Positions 4,230-15,174 of a stretch of DNA of 36,790 bases are shown in pieces. Each line of letters begins with the position of its first letter. Positions within the stretch are counted from its first letter, which is position 1. The translations under genes and the position numbers were made by a program. A model generated the notes under the pieces. The model searched no databases. It had not been told where the DNA came from and saw only the letters and a program-made list of their open reading frames with translations. The DNA comes from Acaryochloris sp. IP29b_bin.137 (GTDB lineage Bacteria > Cyanobacteriota > Cyanobacteriia > Thermosynechococcales > Thermosynechococcaceae): contig NZ_JANQOP010000145.1 of NCBI RefSeq assembly GCF_028285745.1, positions 1-36,790 on the forward strand, given 5' to 3'.

Positions 4230-4820
4230 TTAACCTTCCCAAATTTGCAGTTGCCTGGATGCGGCAACGAAGCAATTCAAAGCTTTGGGGGGATAGAGAA
4301 AGTGGTCATAGGCAACAGCCATCTGCCGAGCGGCTTCGGCATAAGGAACTCGGCCAATTCCTGTTCCTAAACCGGGACAGGCAACACTCCGTATCGGATT
4401 TGGGGACTGCTGATTATGCTGTCGGACCGCTAACAACATGGCCCACATAGCGCTGTAAGGAATATCTGTGCCTTTGATAATCATGGGCACCCGCATGGTT
4501 GGGGTGTGGGCTAGGTAGGGATGTTGGGGATGTCCAGTCTCGACGATCATGGAGGTGCCAATGGGCTGTTCTCCCAAATATGTCTCCAGGATTTGGGATT
4601 TGACTTTCCATTCCAGATCCACGCCGAAAAATTTCGTGATCGCGGCGTCCATACCGCCATCCATCATGCCGAAGGAATTGGCAGGACTCACCAAACAGTC
4701 AAACTCAGTTAACCACTCGAAATAATTATGAACGACTTCAACGTTGGGTAAATGATCGAAGGATTCGCGAAACGCCTCGTATAGTTCAGCGGCAGGCGCT
4801 ACAAGGATTAATTTTGTCAA
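4230..4820 (-). CDS. Macrodomain (ADP-ribose-binding) protein
   Basis: The 196-residue product has the macrodomain fold signature. An Asp-Cys-Leu-Val-Ser-Pro-Ala-Asn-Ser-Phe-Gly segment (about residues 41-51) and GGMDAAI (about 55-61) match the ADP-ribose-binding first loop. GLGTGIGRVPYAEAARQM (about 151-168) matches the phosphate-binding second loop. Members of the family bind ADP-ribose or remove it from proteins or nucleic acids. The only usable start is TTG at 4820, since an in-frame TAG lies immediately upstream and the first internal Met would remove the binding loop. It sits alone; no toxin or ADP-ribosyltransferase gene is next to it, so the substrate cannot be inferred. Confidence 0.85.
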   Translation of the reverse strand: MTKLILVAPAAELYEAFRESFDHLPNVEVVHNYFEWLTEFDCLVSPANSFGMMDGGMDAAITKFFGVDLEWKVKSQILETYLGEQPIGTSMIVETGHPQHPYLAHTPTMRVPMIIKGTDIPYSAMWAMLLAVRQHNQQSPNPIRSVACPGLGTGIGRVPYAEAARQMAVAYDHFLYPPKALNCFVAASRQLQIWEG

Positions 4821-5920: not shown

Positions 5921-6682
5921 TTAAGTGACCGTTACAGCAATCATCGCTTTTAGATACGACAGTTCCGGTGCCATTAACACCCCTGAGTATTCGCCATGGG
6001 GGAGAGATTGGGGCAGTTGAATCGAAATCCCAATGGAATCCACTGCATCCGGGGCCAAACTGAGGGTCTTGGGTGTGATGGAGATGGCCTCCTCAGGAAT
6101 CCGATCCCCTTGGCCATTGTACAAATCTGTACAGAAGAATTTGGCTTGAATAGTTTCTGTACTGTCATTATGAGCTTTAAACGAGATCTGGACCGTCTCC
6201 CCTGCATGGCTCGGATAAGCGGGTTGGAGTAACGGCACAGTGGCATCCTTGGATGGTGTATTCCCTGTTCCCCCTTCCATCAGATCAGATTTGAGGGCAA
6301 TCAGGTTAGCCAACTCATTCACAAATTCGTGCATTTCCCCCGCTAAGCTTTGAACAGAATAGCTAGAGGGGGCAGAAGGCGCGGGCGTGCCTAGGTTAAA
6401 AGGAGAGGCCACAGTTTGAGCAGAAGGTAGGGGCGTTAACCGATCGCTGTCCAGAATAGCGGCAGCTTGCTGCACTAGGGCATCAGGACTGGGAATGACC
6501 TCAGTGTCGCCGGGCTGGATACCCTTGGCAAGGGTTTCTGCTAGCGCATCGGGAGCTGTAGGTAAGTCCGCAGATGGGGTGTCCCTGGACGAAAGCGTTT
6601 CAACTTGATCCACAAGGTCAGCGACCGATTCTGGCAGGCCCTGTTCGAGGAGCTGAAGGGGTTTGCGTCGATAGTGTTTCAT
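5921..6682 (-). CDS. Unknown protein, last gene of the encapsulin unit
   Basis: A 253-residue protein I do not recognise. The N-terminus is basic (MKHYRRKPLQ). Residues about 33-115 are rich in Pro, Ser, Ala and Thr and probably disordered, including EVIPSP (about 61-66). A short helical stretch follows (GEMHEFVNELANLIALKSDL, about 115-134). The C-terminal ~100 residues look like an immunoglobulin-like beta domain (ETVQISFKAHNDS; HGEYSGVLMAPE). It starts 48 bases after the prenyl synthase gene and so belongs to the same transcript. A disordered tail plus a compact domain would suit a cargo, adaptor or scaffold of the shell; this is only inference. Confidence 0.7.
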   Translation of the reverse strand: MKHYRRKPLQLLEQGLPESVADLVDQVETLSSRDTPSADLPTAPDALAETLAKGIQPGDTEVIPSPDALVQQAAAILDSDRLTPLPSAQTVASPFNLGTPAPSAPSSYSVQSLAGEMHEFVNELANLIALKSDLMEGGTGNTPSKDATVPLLQPAYPSHAGETVQISFKAHNDSTETIQAKFFCTDLYNGQGDRIPEEAISITPKTLSLAPDAVDSIGISIQLPQSLPHGEYSGVLMAPELSYLKAMIAVTVT

Positions 6683-6730
6683 CTTGACTGTCCTCTACTT
6701 CTGATTCAGACACCAACGTCTGTTCTTGTA

Positions 6731-7783
6731 CTACTGGCTGCGACTAATCATATAGTGAATCAATTTGGGGATAAACGATTTTGCCTCCGAGTCGGGGGTA
6801 TCACCATAGGCAATCGAGAATTCGTCTAGGGCCGCTTGGGCAAACTGGTTCGCAACTGCGATCGCATAGTCAATACTGCCGTAATCCTGCATCTGTTGAA
6901 TCACCCAACTCACTTCATCTGCAGAGCGTTCGGTCCGGGGCTTACCCATAAACCCTTGGAGCACCTCTAACTCCGAGGGAGTACTGTGCTTGAACAGATG
7001 GACCAGCATCAACGTCCGCTTCCCTTCCCAAATATCACCGCCAATTTCTTTGCCATACCGTTGGGCATCCCCCACCAGATTGAGCACATCATCCTGAATC
7101 TGAAAAGCGGCCCCCATAAAATATCCAAACTTATTAAAGCGGTCTAAGTCCAGGGTGTCCTGGGCCGCAATCAACCCCCCAATACGGCAGGGATGCATAA
7201 AGCTATACCAACAGGTTTTATGCAAAATCAGTTGCAGATAATCTGCTTCACTGACATCACAGCGATTATCCCGTACCCAACCCAATTCAAGGGCTTGCCC
7301 TTCTAGGGATTTCAACATCAAATGCTCAAACTCTTCATAGATGCGTTGGGTGAGGGAATGGCCGAGCAGCGGGATGTTCTCCCGCACGAGTCTTAGACTG
7401 AGGGCATTCATGGCATCGCCCACGTTGACAGCAATGGGCACCCCATGTTCGGCCTGCATCGTTGGCCTGCGGTGGCGGCATTCGCTGTTATCTTCCACGT
7501 CATCATGGACTAGGAAGGCATTGTGAATCATTTCTAGAGCAACAGCTGATTTGAGGGCCTGTTCTTCCGTTCCCCCAAAAGTCTGGCAGGTCGCTATGCA
7601 CAGGGCTGGCCGCAACCCTTTCCCCATATGGGAGAGATGTTGCTTTAAAGGCTGATATAGATATTGTTGGGGTTCTCCAGTGGGAACAACGGCTAATAAG
7701 GCAGCCAAAGTGACATCCCGGTAATGACCGAGATGAGCCTGCAAAGTCTCTAAATCCTTAGATGCAAGGGCAGCCAGGGGCAC
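6731..7783 (-). CDS. Isoprenyl (polyprenyl/geranylgeranyl) diphosphate synthase
   Basis: A 350-residue trans-prenyltransferase that joins isopentenyl diphosphate to allylic diphosphates. It has the substrate-binding GKGLRP (about 54-59). The first Asp-rich motif is DDVED (94-98) followed by RRPT. The second motif is DDVLN (231-235), with Asn in place of the final Asp, followed by GKEIGGDIWEGKRTLM. The length suits geranylgeranyl or longer chain synthases; chain length cannot be fixed by eye. Start is GTG at 7783, with AGAGG a few bases before it and an in-frame stop upstream. It follows the flavoenzyme gene by 33 bases. It may be a second copy beside a housekeeping synthase elsewhere, dedicated to the shell-linked pathway. 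Confidence 0.88.
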   Translation of the reverse strand: MPLAALASKDLETLQAHLGHYRDVTLAALLAVVPTGEPQQYLYQPLKQHLSHMGKGLRPALCIATCQTFGGTEEQALKSAVALEMIHNAFLVHDDVEDNSECRHRRPTMQAEHGVPIAVNVGDAMNALSLRLVRENIPLLGHSLTQRIYEEFEHLMLKSLEGQALELGWVRDNRCDVSEADYLQLILHKTCWYSFMHPCRIGGLIAAQDTLDLDRFNKFGYFMGAAFQIQDDVLNLVGDAQRYGKEIGGDIWEGKRTLMLVHLFKHSTPSELEVLQGFMGKPRTERSADEVSWVIQQMQDYGSIDYAIAVANQFAQAALDEFSIAYGDTPDSEAKSFIPKLIHYMISRSQ

Positions 7784-7816
7784 AAGACACCTCTAGAGCA
7801 TGGGGTAGGCGGTCGT

Positions 7817-9805
7817 TCATGGCGATGGAATAATATGGACCTTTCCGGTACGAGTTGAGGTTTGGGTTGCAGCAGGTGGGGATGGCTGAGATAGAGTTTG
7901 GAGCGCAGATAAATCGGGGATCATCTCCGGCATCGTTTGGGACTCTGCCATTTGGACCACGATGTCCAACACCGACTTTTGCACCACCTCCATCAGCTCT
8001 TGCCGCAATTCGATATTGTCAAAACCTTGCGTGCCAATGGTGTATAGGGGGTTCCCAAATTTCTCTAAGGGCTGATCAATGGTGACCCCCAGCAACTGTT
8101 CCAGAATACGGCCTCCTTGGTGGGCCAGCTTCAGGGCAGATAAGCCCCATCGCACTAAACTGTCATCCCAGGGTAATCCTTGGTGAAACCGAATGCGATC
8201 GATCACCCGCCAGGGCTCAAAAATTTCTTGTTCATGCAGTTTCCAGAGCTTACACTGGGGGACATCTGCTTGAGCCGCGGCAATAATGCCATTGACGGCC
8301 CGGCGAGCGGCTTCATTCGCCCCTTCCATCGTCGCTAAATCCGTATAGGTGCGAACGTAATCAGAGGCCAGAAATAGATTGGGAATCGCCGTTACCGCTT
8401 CCGGGCGTTTAGCCCAAGTATTAATTAAATTGACGAGCAACGGCTCTTCATTGGTGTCGCCTTCGCCTTCCACAAGGTAAATCGCGGGGTCCAAAAACCA
8501 ATGGTCTAAATATTCATCTTTGAGAATGTCTTGACCGTGGATATTGATGCTTTTTTTAAGCTGTGCCCACACCTCATTTTTGACTTCTTCCCGCGTACAT
8601 TCCTTGGCAGTTTTGCCATTAAGCGCTTTTTCATCCCACTCGGAAATATCAACGGAGATGATGCCTTTAATCCGACCATCGGCATATTGGCTAAAATCGA
8701 CGCCAGGCCAAAACTGCCGTTGGGAAATAGAGGTGAGTGCCCAGGGCGAATCTACATAAATCGCATGTCCATGGGATAAGGGCACATCTTCCGTTAAGTA
8801 CAACTGGATGCCATTCATCCAAGACACTCCGCCTTCACTCAACTTTTGGAGAATGCCTAAGCCTGGATCGGCTGCTTTGATACTCTCGGTAATTAACTCC
8901 GCCATCCGTTCCACAGGGACTGCAGCGATATAGTAGTCTCCCTGAACTGTAAAGGTGTGTCCGTTGTGCTCAATGGTGGCCCCTTGAATCTGACCATTCG
9001 TGCAGTGAATTTCTAAGACCTTGGCTTCCAGATGGTATTGCACCCCTTGCTGAGTTAAATAGGCGATCCAAGGATTGATCCAGGCATCATTAGTGGGGGC
9101 ATTGAGCACGCGATCGCTACTGGGTCCCGGCTCTACCAAATCAAATAAAAGCTGGACAAAAATATCGCCGATGGTTTTGGTACTAGCGAGGTGGGCTTTG
9201 GCGGCGACCAAGGAGCGAGTGATGCCATGGCCAAAGATTTTCTGATAGGCCGGGGAACGCTGATCGGCTCCTACAAACTCCCACCAGTCTTCTTTTTCAT
9301 ACTCGGCAAGGCGTCGTTCTTCACAGGAGGTGACAATTTGCCAGACTTTTGTGGCGAAAAAGGCAATCTCTTCGGGAGAGACACCAAAGTCAGGTCCAAA
9401 TATCGTCGGAAATTCATTGAGAATTTCTTGGACATCTGCGAAGGTGCGGGGGGAACGAGAGGGAAAAACAATGGGGCGCTGACCGTAGCGGGCCATTTCG
9501 ACTCGTGTCGTATCCACCAGATTATCGGCAACGGTCTTGTCTTTGCCATAGGGAATCCGCGCCATGGTATCGACAATATGCTTATAAAAGCGGGGAAAAA
9601 ACCGAAAGCCATGCTCACCTGGCAGCGGTTTACGGGGACCATTCGGCCCCATACTGCCCGTATTGGGCACAGGAATACTGCGAGCCTTGCCACCGGGGAT
9701 CTTTTTGGCTTCGTATACCTCTACGGCAAATCCCCGTTCAATCAACTCATGGGCGGCACTCAGGCCTGCAACGCCTCCACCGAGAATCACAACCTTCTTT
9801 TGCAT
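7817..9805 (-). CDS. FAD-dependent oxidoreductase of the phytoene desaturase/amine oxidase superfamily
   Basis: A 662-residue flavoenzyme. It opens with the dinucleotide-binding motif GGGVAGLSAAHELIERG (9-25), with Glu32 at the ribose position and PGGKARS (37-43). It closes the catalytic part with a second FAD motif around LATMEGANEAARRAVNG (about 490-506). The family desaturates or oxidises carotenoid precursors, hydroxysqualene and related isoprenoids. It is far longer than ordinary phytoene desaturase (about 470): some 155 residues follow the FAD motif. The last 40 are Pro/Ser/Thr-rich and end in KVHIIPSP. Its place between the shell gene and the prenyl synthase suggests it is a cargo enzyme acting on a prenyl product; the substrate is unknown. 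Confidence 0.85.
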   Translation of the reverse strand: MQKKVVILGGGVAGLSAAHELIERGFAVEVYEAKKIPGGKARSIPVPNTGSMGPNGPRKPLPGEHGFRFFPRFYKHIVDTMARIPYGKDKTVADNLVDTTRVEMARYGQRPIVFPSRSPRTFADVQEILNEFPTIFGPDFGVSPEEIAFFATKVWQIVTSCEERRLAEYEKEDWWEFVGADQRSPAYQKIFGHGITRSLVAAKAHLASTKTIGDIFVQLLFDLVEPGPSSDRVLNAPTNDAWINPWIAYLTQQGVQYHLEAKVLEIHCTNGQIQGATIEHNGHTFTVQGDYYIAAVPVERMAELITESIKAADPGLGILQKLSEGGVSWMNGIQLYLTEDVPLSHGHAIYVDSPWALTSISQRQFWPGVDFSQYADGRIKGIISVDISEWDEKALNGKTAKECTREEVKNEVWAQLKKSINIHGQDILKDEYLDHWFLDPAIYLVEGEGDTNEEPLLVNLINTWAKRPEAVTAIPNLFLASDYVRTYTDLATMEGANEAARRAVNGIIAAAQADVPQCKLWKLHEQEIFEPWRVIDRIRFHQGLPWDDSLVRWGLSALKLAHQGGRILEQLLGVTIDQPLEKFGNPLYTIGTQGFDNIELRQELMEVVQKSVLDIVVQMAESQTMPEMIPDLSALQTLSQPSPPAATQTSTRTGKVHIIPSP

Positions 9806-9855
9806 GATGTTTCCTATCTGCTGTGAGGGGGTGCTGGATCATTTGAATTTATGTG

Positions 9856-10704
9856 TTAGGAGAGGGTAAAGGCAGTTACTGCCCCTTCTTCCTTAATTCT
9901 CAACACAAATTTTTCATAAACTCGGAACCGATAACGAGCCTCATTACTGACATTCAAAAATTGTACGGTGGGGGATGTTGCGACCACTAAATCAATTGGA
10001 TCACCCGCTAGAGAGACAACCACAACCTGCTCATCATCTAGAGTACTGGAACGTAAAAGCTGAGTCCCTAACATCGGTTCAATCCGATCTTTGGGTAAGA
10101 CGAAAGCATCACCAGAAGGAGTGTTAGCTGCAATAAAAGCGCTATGACCCAGAATGCATGCAAAAGGCCCTAAATGTCCGCTTGACTCCAATGTGGCAAT
10201 AGCTCTGGCGATATCTGCGACAAGATTGCGCTGATTAGGGTTAAGAATGGGTGGATGATTCCTCCCTGCTCCGTCCAGACCATGAGTGGTATCGCCACCC
10301 GTTACCTTGCATTGAGTGGGTACTTTAGCAGTCTCAAGGTCTGCCGTTTCGGGATCCTCCCGAGGCAAACCATTAAAGACAATGGCATCTTCTGCCCGAG
10401 CTAATATATTGGCAGCTCGACGAAAAGCAGACATTGCTCCAGTTAAATGTTCTTCAGCCAATTGTCGTTGTTTTAATTCAACATGGACGGCTAAAGTCCA
10501 GAGTTTCAGTGTATTTACATCGTCAACAGTAATTGAGTTAGATTCCTCTGACAGTTGTTGACTGCGGACTACTGTTGCGCTTCGTTCCAATGGGCCACAA
10601 CAAGCCAGAAACGATCCCGCAACACTAACCTTATTTACCTCATCAGCAACAATCTGTTGAATCTGATCCCACTGCTCCGAAGACCAGTCAATTTGTGAGT
10701 TCAT
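9856..10704 (-). CDS. Encapsulin shell protein (Family 1-like, Linocin_M18 type)
   Basis: A 282-residue HK97-fold shell protein. The N-terminal helix (SSEQWDQIQQIVADEVNKV, 8-26) matches the family's start. RRAANILARAEDAIVFNGL (95-113) matches the conserved spine-helix segment ending in the [IV]FNG signature. GPFACILGHSAF (179-190), a later VVVVSLAGDPIDLVVA and the closing YRFRVYEKFVLRIKEEGAV (258-276) match the A-domain and the typical R-V-x-E-x-x-x-L-R-I ending. Such proteins assemble into hollow shells that enclose cargo enzymes. About 30 residues after FNG (114-147) look inserted relative to common members. There is no cyclic-nucleotide domain, so it is not a Family 2B member. It has its own 126-base leader, useful for higher expression. 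Confidence 0.85.
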   Translation of the reverse strand: MNSQIDWSSEQWDQIQQIVADEVNKVSVAGSFLACCGPLERSATVVRSQQLSEESNSITVDDVNTLKLWTLAVHVELKQRQLAEEHLTGAMSAFRRAANILARAEDAIVFNGLPREDPETADLETAKVPTQCKVTGGDTTHGLDGAGRNHPPILNPNQRNLVADIARAIATLESSGHLGPFACILGHSAFIAANTPSGDAFVLPKDRIEPMLGTQLLRSSTLDDEQVVVVSLAGDPIDLVVATSPTVQFLNVSNEARYRFRVYEKFVLRIKEEGAVTAFTLS

Positions 10705-10740
10705 AGAGTCTGAATATCCTAAATATTGGAAGATAAGCTA

Positions 10741-10755
10741 ACTGCTTGTGGCAGT
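10741..10755 (-). promoter_or_regulatory. Small hairpin in the leader of the encapsulin gene
   Basis: ACTGC and GCAGT form a perfect 5-base stem with a 5-base loop, 37 bases before the encapsulin start, in the only long gap of the unit. It could tune read-through or mRNA ends. No T-tract makes it a full terminator. Confidence 0.3.
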
Positions 10756-10830
10756 AGTCATAAATAAAAAAACTCAATGCAGAAAATCAGATCGTAAAAA
10801 CAAAAGGGATTGCCAAAAGTTTACAACAAA

Positions 10831-11712
10831 CTAGAGGGCATACAAATCATAAATGACTAGCAAATTTGACATTTGCACTTCCCCAATCCCAATGCATTGG
10901 AGCCGATTCAACCACTGATACTTTGGATGCTCTGTTAAGAAACGTGGTGCTATTCTCAGCGGAGGAGCATTAGGCCATTGTCGCCTCAGAAAATTTTGAT
11001 ACCCCTGTTGTCCTAGTTCAAAAACCCCTGAGTATCTTGTTTGAATAAGAGCGCCTTCAGCAGTGGTAAGTGTGACATCAGCATCCAAAATACCAATTCC
11101 ATCCGGGCGAATCGTCATATGATCAGACCCGTATGGGCTAAAAATGGCATTCAATTTTGGACCACTCACCTGACCTATTTTGACGAACCAGTTTATCTTT
11201 AGTCCTTCTGGCGTTTGCCCAATGATTTCAGGAGTCTTCAGTAATTGCACTTGCACGGTAGCAAGATAATTTAACTGGAATGGGAATCGATGCAACAGTA
11301 TAGACTCATCAGCTGGGGACGTTGATGCCAGTTGGGGAGAAGACAATGATGATGAATCATTGATCGTAAAGGAGGAAGGAAATTTCTGAGTGCTGAGAAC
11401 ATTTGGGACTTGCCGCCCTGCACAAGATAGGGTCACCAAATACTTAACTTTTTGGGGCTCCAATAAAGGCGGGAAATGAACTGAGAAATATTGCGTTGAA
11501 GCAGCATAGTCAGAGTGCTGAAGTACACCAGAAATCGATTGCACAAGCCTATTCTTATCTGAACGATAATAGACTGTCACCTTATTTGCTGGATGCAGTG
11601 GATAAACACCAATTGTAATGGAGATATCTTGCCGAGCTGCTACAAAGCTCTCAGGTGCAGGAGCATCTTCTGTTCCATACCAGAGCTTTAACCCATCATG
11701 GCTAACTTCCAC
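10831..11712 (-). CDS. DUF3237-domain protein with an N-terminal beta domain
   Basis: 293 residues in two parts. Residues about 1-110 are beta-rich and begin with DGLKLWYGTEDAPAP, a pattern known to me from the front domain of other DUF3237 proteins. Residues about 145-293 match DUF3237 (UPF0311): IRPDGIGILDADVTLTTAEG, ALIQTRYSGV, RIAPRFLTEHPKYQWLNR, CIGIGE. The family forms small beta-barrels; some members elsewhere bind or modify aromatic or polyketide products, but most have no known role. Start is GTG at 11712, nine bases after the cyclase stop, and no other start fits before the upstream in-frame stop. A gap of 126 bases separates it from the shell gene. A ligand-binding or accessory role in the pathway is a guess. 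Confidence 0.8.
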   Translation of the reverse strand: MEVSHDGLKLWYGTEDAPAPESFVAARQDISITIGVYPLHPANKVTVYYRSDKNRLVQSISGVLQHSDYAASTQYFSVHFPPLLEPQKVKYLVTLSCAGRQVPNVLSTQKFPSSFTINDSSSLSSPQLASTSPADESILLHRFPFQLNYLATVQVQLLKTPEIIGQTPEGLKINWFVKIGQVSGPKLNAIFSPYGSDHMTIRPDGIGILDADVTLTTAEGALIQTRYSGVFELGQQGYQNFLRRQWPNAPPLRIAPRFLTEHPKYQWLNRLQCIGIGEVQMSNLLVIYDLYAL

Positions 11713-11721
11713 TGAAATCCA

Positions 11722-14700
11722 TCATCCCTCTAAAAAAGCAGAACTTTCTAATTCATCTAGAAAAAGGCGTACTTGCCTAAGATCAGGGGTGCCCAGGCCT
11801 TCTGTAAACTGATTATAAATTTCGGAGGTACATTCCCGAGCTGCATTTGTGCTCCCTTGGGAACACCAAAAACGACTTAAGCTAAGAGCCGCTCTAAGCT
11901 CCAACATGATTGCATTCTGTTGATGGGCAAGGGATGTTGCTTCTTTAAAGCAGTCTTCCACAATGCATACATCAGCAGCTTGAAGAATTCGTTGAGTTTG
12001 ACTAAATTGGTGCCACAAAAATTCAGCTTTCAAGCGATATAACTCAGGCTCCATATGATGCTCGTTACGGGTTTTCGCCTCTTGAATTCCCACTTCTAAA
12101 GTGTGAAAGGCTTCTTCAAAACGTTCAGACAACCAGTAAACTTCCGCCATCATACCCATAACTTGTGGGAAAATAACGGAGGTTCCAGTTTGCTTAAATA
12201 AGTCTAAACCTTCGACCATTTCCTGAAGGCCATCTTGAGTTCTTCCTTGCAACGCAATTGACCATCCATGAAAGAGCATCGCCACAGGAATCCATAATAG
12301 AAAGCCTTCTGCCTGGGAAATATCCAGCAATTCTTCCGCTTTGTCTTCCACCAAAGGCAAGTTACGAGTCAGTTGATATTGATGTAAGCTAGCGCCCAAT
12401 GCATAAGCTCTATTGGGAAGGTGATGCAGGTTTTGGGCAAGTTCCATTGCAGCTTCCACATGTTTGGGTAATTGTTCTGGATAGCCCAACATCCAGAGAC
12501 TGCCAGCAAGAAACATTTGTATACATACCGCTGAAGAGAGCTGGGTTTCGTAGACTAAATGTTGTTCGGATTCAAACTCAAACTGGGTTAATCCCCTAGT
12601 AGCGACCTCTCTAGCATCGACATATTCACCTCGATAGAACTGGGTATAACCCACTGCATGGCAGGCCATCTCATACATAATGGGTTGATCAACTAGCTGA
12701 GCGCTCTTCAATACCTCTTCTGCAGCCTCAATCGCTTCATCCATTTGACCTCGAAGAAAGTAATTGGTCCATAGCCCCCATAAAGCTTTGGATAGACTGT
12801 GTTGGTTCTCAGTTTTTAGACTGAGTGCTTTTGCTCGAATACAGGTTTGTTCAACTTCTATGGATGCCCAGCCTTTAATTGCCATAAAAGCGGGAGCAAG
12901 ACCAAGCTGCATTTGCAATTCCAGCCGATCTCGTTCGGTCCCTTCCGAAAGCCCGTTGAGTAACTCGATCCCTTGTTTCAAATGTGCTATCGCTTCCGAA
13001 TTAGCCGCTTGTTCTAAGTCCCTTTGGCCTGCCTGTAACCAATACCGAATCGCAGTGTGTAACAGTCCCGCTTCAGTGAAATGATACGCTAACAACTCGG
13101 GTCGGATAGATTCTTGCTCATCCCCTCGTCGTTCAAGGGTATGAGCAATCCGCTGATGATAAGATTGCCGACGTATTTTTACCAAAGATTGATAAGCAGC
13201 ATCCTGAATCAGCGCATGCTTGAATTGATACGTGGCAAACGGCGGAGAACCCTCTTGGTAGAGTAATCCAGCTTCAACCAATTGATTGAGGCCATTGCGC
13301 AGAGTGGCCTGATTCCACTGCGAAACCTCTTCCAATAACTCGTAGTCAAATTCGCGACCCAATGTAGAGCCCAATTGGGCCACTTCTTTCACAACCGACA
13401 AGCGATCTAGACGCTCAATCAAAGAATCATGCAGAGTTGTGGGAATAGTAAGTGATACATATTCATCCCTAGAACGTTGTTCAGCAGGATTTTCATCTGC
13501 CTCTAAAACGGTTTTAGTCAACTCTTCAACAAATAAAGGAATACCGTCTGTTTTCTGAACGATTTGCTGAATCAGCGGCTGGGGCAACCATTTTTCTTGT
13601 ACCGTCTGCTCCACCATCATTTGAATTTCCTGCCCCCCTAAGCTGTTGAGCTGCAGATGATGTAAATGAGTCTGCTCATGCCAAGGCGATTTAAACTCAG
13701 GGCGGCAGGTCAACAGCATCAGGAGACGATGATCGTGAATCTGCTCTAGAAAATAAGTGATGGCATCGAGGGTTGATGCATCCATCCAATGCAGGTCTTC
13801 GATTACTAGCAAAACTGGCTGAATGTTTGCGATCGCTAAACAGACCGCAGTCATTACCTCAATTGTTTTCTGTTTTTGCCGCTCAGGGGTCAGATTTAAG
13901 GGCGGATATTGATCGGTCGCTGGAATGGCTAGCAAACTGGCAAATAAGGGGACATAATCTGTGGGTGGCAAAGAACATTGCTCAAGAAACTGTTCCATTT
14001 TGGCCAGCTTTTCATCAGCAGTATCGTCCTGAGAAAAGCCAAAGGTATGTTGTTTGAGAAACTCAGTGATGGGGTAAAACGCACTGTTTTGGTAGTAAGG
14101 TGAGCCTTGGATTTCTGTAATCCAAACTTCTTGAGTGGTAGCAATCTTTTTCTTAATTTCCCATACCAATCTTGATTTGCCCATACCTGCTTCCCCCTGC
14201 AGCAAAACAGCATGGGTGTGGCCAGCCATCACGGCTTGCCAACGCTTCAACAGCAGCTCGGTTTCGGTACTGCGGTTCACAAATGGGGTCAAACCTGACT
14301 TTTCAGCCACCGCAAACCGACTTTTTGCTTTGCTTTCCCGCAGAACTTGAAAAATAGTAATGGGATCTGTAATCCCTTTCAGTTTTTGTGGCTCTAACTG
14401 CTGACACTCAAAAAAACCATCTACCAGGCGATGCGTGGCAGAACTGATAATCAGCGAATTGGGCTGAGCAAGAGACTGCAAACGGGCAGCAATATTCGGC
14501 GTGGCTCCCACAATCGCCATCGGGTCAGGTGCTTCTTTCACGCCCATCTCACCAATGACCACCAATCCGGTGTGAATCCCAATCCGCACCGACAGACGCT
14601 CCCCCCATTTCTTCATCATTTGAGGATTAAGACGCTGAAGGGCTTCTAGTATTCGTAGGCCGCTACTGACCGCTCTTCTAGCATCATCTTCATGGGCCTG

Positions 14701-15174
14701 GGGGTAGCCGAAGTAGATGAGTACCCCATCCCCTAAGTACCGAGCAATATATCCTTCGGCATTCGCAATGGCCTTAGCACAGAGTTCCTGATAGGCCAGA
14801 AACACATCGCGTAAATCTTCCGGGTCCAGCCTTTCAGCAAGGGGAGCAGACTCTACCAGATCGCAAAACATAACCGTGAGTTGACGCCGTTCTGTTTCCC
14901 GTCCCCAACTCTCATCCGATTGGGCATTGATATTGGTCTTGAGATGCTGAAAGTTTTTATGTTGCCAGTCCGTTTTCAGGGGGCCTGCTGCTTGTAACAC
15001 CAACATTTTTTGATCCCGGTCAGTGGCAAGTTGCAAGACATCGATCAGTTCATACTTAATATCGTCTAGAAATGGGTCATCGATATTAAATTGCCGCTTG
15101 ATTGCCCGATAGGAAACTTGACCGCGACGGTACAGGATACTAATCGTTTGATCTAAAACTTCTTCAAAGTCCAT
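11722..15174 (-). CDS. Class III adenylate/guanylate cyclase with AAA ATPase and TPR-like repeats
   Basis: 1150 residues. A small N-terminal helical domain (about 1-60) comes first. The cyclase catalytic domain (about 95-280) has RRQLTVMFCDLVES, with metal-binding Asp105, and YLGDGVLIYFGYP, with Asp149. VGATPNIAARLQ carries Thr at the base-selecting position, as in class IIIb cyclases. An AAA/STAND-type ATPase follows, with Walker A GEAGMGKS (327-334) and Walker B VLLVIEDLHW. The last ~450 residues are helical TPR-like repeats for ligand or protein sensing. It likely makes cAMP in response to a bound partner. As the first gene, nine bases before the DUF3237 gene, it may report on or control the encapsulin pathway. 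Confidence 0.85.
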   Translation of the reverse strand: MDFEEVLDQTISILYRRGQVSYRAIKRQFNIDDPFLDDIKYELIDVLQLATDRDQKMLVLQAAGPLKTDWQHKNFQHLKTNINAQSDESWGRETERRQLTVMFCDLVESAPLAERLDPEDLRDVFLAYQELCAKAIANAEGYIARYLGDGVLIYFGYPQAHEDDARRAVSSGLRILEALQRLNPQMMKKWGERLSVRIGIHTGLVVIGEMGVKEAPDPMAIVGATPNIAARLQSLAQPNSLIISSATHRLVDGFFECQQLEPQKLKGITDPITIFQVLRESKAKSRFAVAEKSGLTPFVNRSTETELLLKRWQAVMAGHTHAVLLQGEAGMGKSRLVWEIKKKIATTQEVWITEIQGSPYYQNSAFYPITEFLKQHTFGFSQDDTADEKLAKMEQFLEQCSLPPTDYVPLFASLLAIPATDQYPPLNLTPERQKQKTIEVMTAVCLAIANIQPVLLVIEDLHWMDASTLDAITYFLEQIHDHRLLMLLTCRPEFKSPWHEQTHLHHLQLNSLGGQEIQMMVEQTVQEKWLPQPLIQQIVQKTDGIPLFVEELTKTVLEADENPAEQRSRDEYVSLTIPTTLHDSLIERLDRLSVVKEVAQLGSTLGREFDYELLEEVSQWNQATLRNGLNQLVEAGLLYQEGSPPFATYQFKHALIQDAAYQSLVKIRRQSYHQRIAHTLERRGDEQESIRPELLAYHFTEAGLLHTAIRYWLQAGQRDLEQAANSEAIAHLKQGIELLNGLSEGTERDRLELQMQLGLAPAFMAIKGWASIEVEQTCIRAKALSLKTENQHSLSKALWGLWTNYFLRGQMDEAIEAAEEVLKSAQLVDQPIMYEMACHAVGYTQFYRGEYVDAREVATRGLTQFEFESEQHLVYETQLSSAVCIQMFLAGSLWMLGYPEQLPKHVEAAMELAQNLHHLPNRAYALGASLHQYQLTRNLPLVEDKAEELLDISQAEGFLLWIPVAMLFHGWSIALQGRTQDGLQEMVEGLDLFKQTGTSVIFPQVMGMMAEVYWLSERFEEAFHTLEVGIQEAKTRNEHHMEPELYRLKAEFLWHQFSQTQRILQAADVCIVEDCFKEATSLAHQQNAIMLELRAALSLSRFWCSQGSTNAARECTSEIYNQFTEGLGTPDLRQVRLFLDELESSAFLEG

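Follow-up and report, generated by a model that had tools for sequence, protein, structure and literature searches.

The stretch of DNA analysed here (the window) comprises 36,790 nucleotides of contig NZ_JANQOP010000145.1 from Acaryochloris sp. IP29b_bin.137, a draft genome of 5.5 Mb that is 87.8% complete, and it contains a unit of six genes centred on an encapsulin of the Family 1 type. These genes encode a nucleotide cyclase/AAA protein, a DUF3237 protein, the shell protein, a flavin-dependent oxidoreductase (the flavoenzyme), a prenyl diphosphate synthase and a protein of 253 amino acids (aa). They occupy open reading frames (ORFs) on the minus strand between positions 5921 and 15174, and the ORF listing reproduced exactly the common strand and the successive gaps of 9, 126, 50, 33 and 48 bases given in a preliminary description of this DNA (Table 1). 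The unit is real, conserved and horizontally spread, and its partner set is apparently undescribed. As to its function, we give about an even chance to a Family 1-type compartment whose main cargo would be the flavoenzyme, acting on an isoprenoid supplied by the dedicated prenyl diphosphate synthase; judged from its sequence, the flavoenzyme is the likeliest cargo.

The 282-aa protein is, by profile comparison, a divergent Family 1-type encapsulin, and the preliminary description was correct on this point. It matched Linocin_M18 (PF04454) with 84.3 bits against a cut-off of 24.3, and its counterpart on a plasmid of Ruegeria sp. AD91A scored 90.8 bits. A profile built from six relatives (alignment A1, in which the shell of genome G393 lacks its first residues) matched the Myxococcus EncA chains with an E value of 5.9e-19; alignment positions 8-121 corresponded to EncA residues 13-134 (20.2 bits) and positions 168-287 to residues 160-278 (49.8 bits). 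The NCBIfam model encap_f1 (NF041155) was matched by all six members of the alignment (best E 2.6e-30), and the annotation of the AD91A plasmid calls the gene a family 1 encapsulin. Neither a Family 2 shell nor a cNMP domain was among the matches of the shell protein, for which PF04454 and encap_f1 alone were listed.

Encapsulins probably derived from HK97-type phages (PMC8346489), and the window shell fell just below the encap_f1 cut-off (91.1 against 100), as might be expected if the HK97-fold protein were the product of a domesticated or decaying phage capsid gene travelling with a metabolic operon. We consider this highly improbable. The AD91A shell lies above the same cut-off (105.7), the window shell is full-length with a dN/dS of 0.08-0.12 (dS saturated), the same neighbours accompany it in two phyla, and those neighbours that were scanned are not phage genes. 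No relative was confirmed in viral contigs (two short patterns) with the encapsulin and flavoenzyme alignments, and the prenyl synthase alignment gave a single match of 28% there. For all six genes, dN/dS in comparisons among the window and loci L009 and L022 was 0.04-0.25 where computable, with dS near or above saturation in these pairs and the ratio undefined for two DUF3237 pairs.

Conservation of the neighbourhood provided evidence that these genes belong together. An encapsulin search of the family matched 5 of 29 genomes, namely the window genome, G386, G389, G393 and G406; the G406 match (E 2.6e-4) was set aside for its in-frame stops. The order of the six genes is identical in L009 (genome G389) and L022 (genome G386), both from the same genus as the window, and the same order recurs in L023 (genome G393), from a different genus, where the copy is fragmentary and frame-broken; the cyclase has counterparts in L009 and L022 and a fragment in L023. 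Beyond the cyanobacteria, genes for a cyclase, an encapsulin, a DUF3237 protein, the flavoenzyme and a prenyl synthase stand one after another on plasmids of two marine Alphaproteobacteria, Ruegeria sp. THAF33 and AD91A. These units are partly reordered with respect to the window and begin with a cyclase-domain protein, identified there from its annotation and not by alignment with the window cyclase, and a convergent 'hypothetical' gene adjoining them is the counterpart of the gene for the 253-aa protein. The gene table of THAF33 is incomplete and has no entry for the flavoenzyme, and a matching frame sits between the expected neighbours. Identity between the Ruegeria and window proteins was 51-52% for the flavoenzyme, 50% for the prenyl synthase, 39% for the shell, 27-28% for the DUF3237 protein and 23-25% for the 253-aa protein. 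Recurrence of the set in further genomes, those of a second phylum included, makes it more than a chance association.

The preliminary description had suggested looking for this conservation across cyanobacteria, and conservation on that scale was not supported: a profile of the shell matched only 4 of 388 genomes of the class, all in a single family. The 253-aa protein profile matched six of the 388, strongly in the same four genomes and weakly (E 3.6e-4 and 6.8e-4, over the C-terminal part only) in two others, and the flavoenzyme, at E 1e-40, was found in ten, that is, in the same four and in six without a shell match. A PF04454 scan of 309 class genomes, a sample that overlaps the 388 and is not independent of it, gave five matches, of which the four above the cut-off were again these genomes; the fifth, in G394, lay under the cut-off beside ORFs that by eye resemble prophage structural genes, and was rejected. 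Searches of plasmids with the Ruegeria shell and 253-aa counterpart returned no records beyond the two Ruegeria plasmids. The unit appears to be movable as a block. Within the genus, it is present next to the conserved cobO gene in three members (the window, L009 and L022); in G387, G388 and G391 the cobO and sensor-kinase genes were found, and the 3.7-12 kb read on the opposite side contained no unit; cobO was not found in G390, several of the genomes in this comparison being incomplete (82-92%). The L023 unit is flanked by other genes, and that of Ruegeria is plasmid-borne.

The partners of the shell appear to set the unit apart from known encapsulin systems. Family 1 cargo classes, as given in the available excerpts of a 2021 survey, comprise peroxidases, ferritin-like proteins and hemerythrins, along with other redox or iron proteins related to these (PMC8346489), and the present partner set is not among them, as the preliminary description had maintained. 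Among the Pfam and NCBIfam matches listed for the unit, there was none to DyP, ferritin-like, hemerythrin, IMEF or bacterioferritin cargo. The cargo search of that survey took the consensus of the classical tag as its starting point, neighbouring genes being curated manually, and left 90 Family 1 systems unassigned, which are detailed in its supplement (PMC8346489); among the matches listed in our literature search, the titles and abstract openings mentioned no encapsulin with partners of the kind seen here. With Family 1 systems such as Myxococcus EncA and those of DyP, ferritin-like and hemerythrin cargo, the unit shares a PF04454 shell, partner genes adjacent to the shell gene and a C-terminal tag on a variable linker (here a candidate tag). 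It differs from them in the identity of the partners, which comprise a flavin oxidoreductase and a prenyl synthase together with a DUF3237 protein, a cyclase and a protein that is probably Ig-like. Family 2B systems, with polyprenyl transferase or terpene cyclase cargo, also have an isoprenoid enzyme gene beside the shell gene, and they share a cyclic-nucleotide theme in that their shell carries a cNMP-binding domain (PMC8346489) and the window has a cyclase gene. The window shell differs from theirs in matching PF04454 and in giving no match to a cNMP domain, and the prenyl synthase scored 184.5 with the Family 2 cargo model f2_encap_cargo4, against a cut-off of 450.

In the phylum as a whole, 6 of 386 genomes matched in an encapsulin search. 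At four of the other five loci (L042, L044, L045 and L046, which belong to other classes of the phylum), inspection by eye revealed an ORF at the shell that ends in or near TVGSL or TVGSM; the three of these ORFs that were scanned, from L042, L044 and L046, score above the EncFtn-like threshold of Pfam and give sub-threshold matches to the EncB cargo family. No ORF with such an ending was seen by eye at the shell of L043. Most of the other encapsulins inspected in the phylum thus look ordinary, which the window unit does not.

The proposal that the flavoenzyme is the cargo gained weight from its C-terminal end, which carries a candidate loading tag. Sixteen flavoenzymes, six of them linked to a shell and ten not, were compared by counting residues after a conserved anchor. 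All six shell-linked proteins had 157-179 residues beyond this point, compared with 57-81 in the six cyanobacterial proteins without a shell match, a surplus of about 76-122 residues. The remaining four, from plasmids of Streptomyces, Haloferax, Haloterrigena and Nocardia, did not match the anchor pattern and by eye end soon after the anchor; for these, 'shell-free' refers to the plasmid record alone, which gave no match to this shell. The tail consists of a poorly conserved stretch followed by a short basic/hydrophobic motif, which in the cyanobacteria reads RTGKVHIIPSP (window), RTGKVRIIPEQ, RSGKVRIIPE or RSGRVRIIPQ and in Ruegeria consists of RSG, four residues and KSRVIITQKG, giving over the six proteins the consensus R-[ST]-G, 0-4 residues, [KR]-x-[RH]-[IV]-I. 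Among the four cyanobacterial rows, 6 of the 9 motif columns are identical as opposed to 3 of 26 in the preceding linker. A scan of the window unit and the AD91A unit, 12 proteins in all, found the pattern [KR]x[RHK][IV]I once in each of the two flavoenzymes, C-terminally in both cases, and nowhere in the remaining 10 proteins. A tree of 15 flavoenzymes contained a branch, supported at 84/88 and recovered in 82% of bootstrap trees, that set the shell-linked members apart. The G393 flavoenzyme, which is broken in two frames, is represented by its C-terminal piece only in alignment A2 and the tail comparison, and was left out of the tree.

The chemistry of the flavoenzyme can be placed only broadly. 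The 662-aa protein matched Amino_oxidase (PF01593) with 70.2 bits, and its closest similarities in NCBIfam are to HpnE and to the phytoene and zeta-carotene desaturases, which are likewise FAD-dependent and have isoprenoid substrates. Unlike these enzymes it is longer, has its own tail and lies far below the respective cut-offs, its scores being 88.9 against 283.05 for HpnE, the best model, and 41.9 against 569.4 (TIGR02731) and 49.5 against 622.15 for the phytoene and zeta-carotene desaturase models. Since the protein falls far short of the threshold of every named family, the label 'phytoene desaturase' was rejected; the earlier wording 'phytoene-desaturase-like' holds for the superfamily and fails for the family, and with no carotenoid desaturase model near its cut-off, the carotenoid chemistry also proposed at that stage is not supported. 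A link to prenyl substrates is suggested by plasmids of Streptomyces, where a homologous flavoenzyme (about 42% identity) adjoins a polyprenyl synthetase, as in the window, at all three loci inspected (L030, L060 and L061) of five records found. There the two genes converge tail-to-tail with a 17-base overlap and no shell or DUF3237 gene is listed nearby, the flavoenzyme (one examined) has no long C-terminal tail, and the prenyl synthase is 27% identical to that of the window.

Several results weigh against an encapsulated flavoenzyme working on an isoprenoid, some concerning the tag and others the chemistry. The resemblance between the cyanobacterial and Ruegeria tails is marginal (shuffle p ~0.04). 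In comparisons with the Ruegeria tail, 202 of 618 other stretches taken from the window flavoenzyme equal or exceed the score of the window tail; in comparisons with the tail of L022, none of the 618 does. The tag pattern was written after the tails had been seen, and a pattern scan found the classical GSL-type tag of Family 1 in none of the 12 proteins, which is a further difference from Family 1 systems. A single shell-linked group receives only modest support in the tree, in which several of the sequences form long branches. Enclosure of all the enzymes is not supported, as a tag-like tail was seen on the flavoenzyme only and a possible second docking motif on the 253-aa protein.

This second motif raised the question of whether the shell, taken as real, has as its main cargo not the flavoenzyme but the 253-aa protein (most likely, through its RKP motif) or the DUF3237 protein, with the flavoenzyme and prenyl synthase remaining outside. 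The N-terminus of the 253-aa protein follows the pattern M-x-[HY]-[YF]-x-R-K-P before a variable linker, and M1, R6, K7 and P8 are invariant in 6/6 rows of alignment A3, which spans two phyla; to the eye, the two phyla agree more clearly here than in the tail of the flavoenzyme. Moreover, the protein has its strong matches in the same four of 388 genomes as the shell, whereas the flavoenzyme occurs in ten and also without the 253-aa protein. We nevertheless think this arrangement clearly unlikely. The 253-aa protein, much of which is poorly conserved, resembles a binding protein of the Ig-like kind more than an enzyme, and among the 16 flavoenzymes the long tail was present only where a shell adjoins. 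No Pfam family matched the 253-aa protein above its cut-off; some members gave weak Ig/Fn3-type matches, and the C-terminal half is, on its sequence features, probably Ig-like. Solved structures gave only weak glycosidase matches (E 0.003-0.037).

On the side of the chemistry, the flavoenzyme reaches the cut-off of no named family, and prenyl synthase genes are mostly missing where it occurs without a shell: there was no match beside it at 5/5 shell-free cyanobacterial loci or at the Nocardia locus, none among the ORFs of the flavoenzyme locus of G400, and none annotated at 3/3 haloarchaeal loci. Its two weak matches in the Protein Data Bank (PDB) are to 4-methylaminobutanoate oxidase (E 1.6e-5) and L-amino acid oxidase (E 5.5e-5), and the flavoenzyme alignment had no match to a solved structure at E 1e-5. 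These observations would fit an amine-oxidase-type or other oxidoreductase whose substrate is not an isoprenoid, the prenyl synthase serving a prenylated quinone or lipid, a scheme with which encapsulation would still be compatible. We regard it as rather unlikely, given that the nearest named families are HpnE and the carotene desaturases and that flavoenzyme and prenyl synthase genes are neighbours in the shell-bearing cyanobacteria, in Ruegeria and in Streptomyces.

The prenyl synthase itself was readily recognised, matching polyprenyl_synt (PF00348) with 202.1 bits; DDxED and DDVLN are invariant in 5/5 rows of its alignment, and in the PDB it came closest to geranylgeranyl diphosphate synthases. 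Three PF00348 matches were found in the incomplete source genome, which suggests that the one belonging to the unit is an additional, dedicated copy. In the 293-aa protein, DUF3237 (PF11578) matched residues 146-292 with 99.2 bits and the N-terminus, to about residue 125, belongs to no known family; profile A5 gave its best stretch with solved structures over positions 145-294. G393 is missing from alignments A4 and A5, and the Ruegeria rows of A5 start a few codons upstream of the annotated start. PhnH is a protein that we take to belong to DUF3237. PhnH is described as catalysing the addition of a phenol to the double bond of a prenyl group (PMC8704240), and PinX was predicted, in the context of DUF3237, to carry out a decarboxylation with furan ring opening (PMC12607616). 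The 1150-aa protein matched Guanylate_cyc with 73.7 bits and AAA_16 with 70.4 bits; the cyclase and AAA parts of its earlier label were thereby confirmed, whereas TPR was matched only weakly (TPR_12, 18.6 bits against a cut-off of 30.1). A scan for promoters and terminators did no better than shuffled sequence.

Table 1. Coordinates of the genes and candidate motifs of the encapsulin unit in the window.
Feature	Position	Strand	Basis
Class III nucleotide cyclase / AAA ATPase protein, weak TPR matches, 1150 aa	11722..15174; cyclase domain ~14350-14886	-	Pfam
DUF3237 protein, 293 aa	10831..11712	-	PF11578
Family 1-type encapsulin shell protein, 282 aa	9856..10704	-	PF04454, encap_f1, EncA profile match
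FAD-dependent oxidoreductase, amine oxidase / HpnE / phytoene desaturase superfamily, 662 aa	7817..9805	-	PF01593
C-terminal extension of the flavoenzyme, ~residues 548-662	7820..8164	-	only in shell-linked members compared
Candidate cargo-loading tag RTGKVHIIPSP, residues 652-662 of the flavoenzyme	7820..7852	-	motif conservation
Trans-prenyl diphosphate synthase, 350 aa, motifs DDVED and DDVLN	6731..7783	-	PF00348
253-aa protein of no Pfam family	5921..6682	-	alignment A3
Second candidate docking motif, residues 1-10 of the 253-aa protein	6653..6682	-	alignment A3

Taken together with the flavoenzyme as cargo, these components suggest the following scheme. The shell protein would assemble into a closed icosahedral shell, and the flavoenzyme, whose tail is visible in the sequence, would be loaded by means of this flexible C-terminal extension and the short basic/hydrophobic tag at its end. 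The prenyl diphosphate synthase would provide a medium-chain prenyl diphosphate, perhaps C20, and inside the shell the flavoenzyme would oxidise or desaturate a compound derived from it. By analogy with characterised DUF3237 enzymes, the DUF3237 protein may perform a follow-up step, for example ring closure, ring opening or decarboxylation. The RKP motif at the N-terminus of the 253-aa protein would probably dock this protein on the shell, and the cyclase/AAA protein may be a signalling regulator. The purpose of the shell could be to retain an intermediate that is reactive or of low solubility, or the peroxide that the flavin generates. Only tentatively, and with less than even confidence, do we put forward the complete picture of an undescribed, horizontally spread organelle that combines a Family 1-type shell, a non-classical tag, a flavoenzyme that finishes an isoprenoid from a dedicated prenyl synthase, a docked Ig-like protein and a cyclase regulator. 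If it is correct, the unit would be a nanocompartment of the natural-product type on a classical shell. With enzymes of the isoprenoid type in a conserved unit, the known range of the classical shell would reach towards secondary metabolism; engineering would gain a new loading tag, and one enzyme family with shell and tail, or without either, would provide a natural experiment.

A few further observations concern the surroundings and variants of the unit. Downstream of the six genes, on the same strand, a macro-domain protein is encoded at window positions 4230-4820; no counterpart was seen adjoining the unit in L022, and so this gene probably lies outside it. Just beyond the unit of G386 (L022:2836-4026) are two ORFs that by eye resemble pieces of transposases. 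The L009 shell (L009:10001-10972) has, compared with the window shell, an acidic insertion of about 34 residues near residue 52, which likely corresponds to the E-loop, together with nine extra C-terminal residues; in the other shells of alignment A1 such an insertion is missing or much shorter. The Thermotoga maritima encapsulin is itself a flavoprotein, according to the title of the report (PMC8610991).

The flavoenzyme also occurs in other settings. In G400 (L024:171-5783) a shell-free flavoenzyme gene is directly followed by a cyclase/AAA gene that by eye is like that of the window, so that the regulator may be paired with the flavoenzyme even where no encapsulin is present. At L038, L039, L040 and L041, shell-free cyanobacterial flavoenzymes adjoin large genes that match the AAA part of the window cyclase protein (22-27%), and they have a hydrophobic/aromatic end (best 19-residue mean 1.24-1.72), which is possibly a membrane anchor that takes the place of the shell tail.

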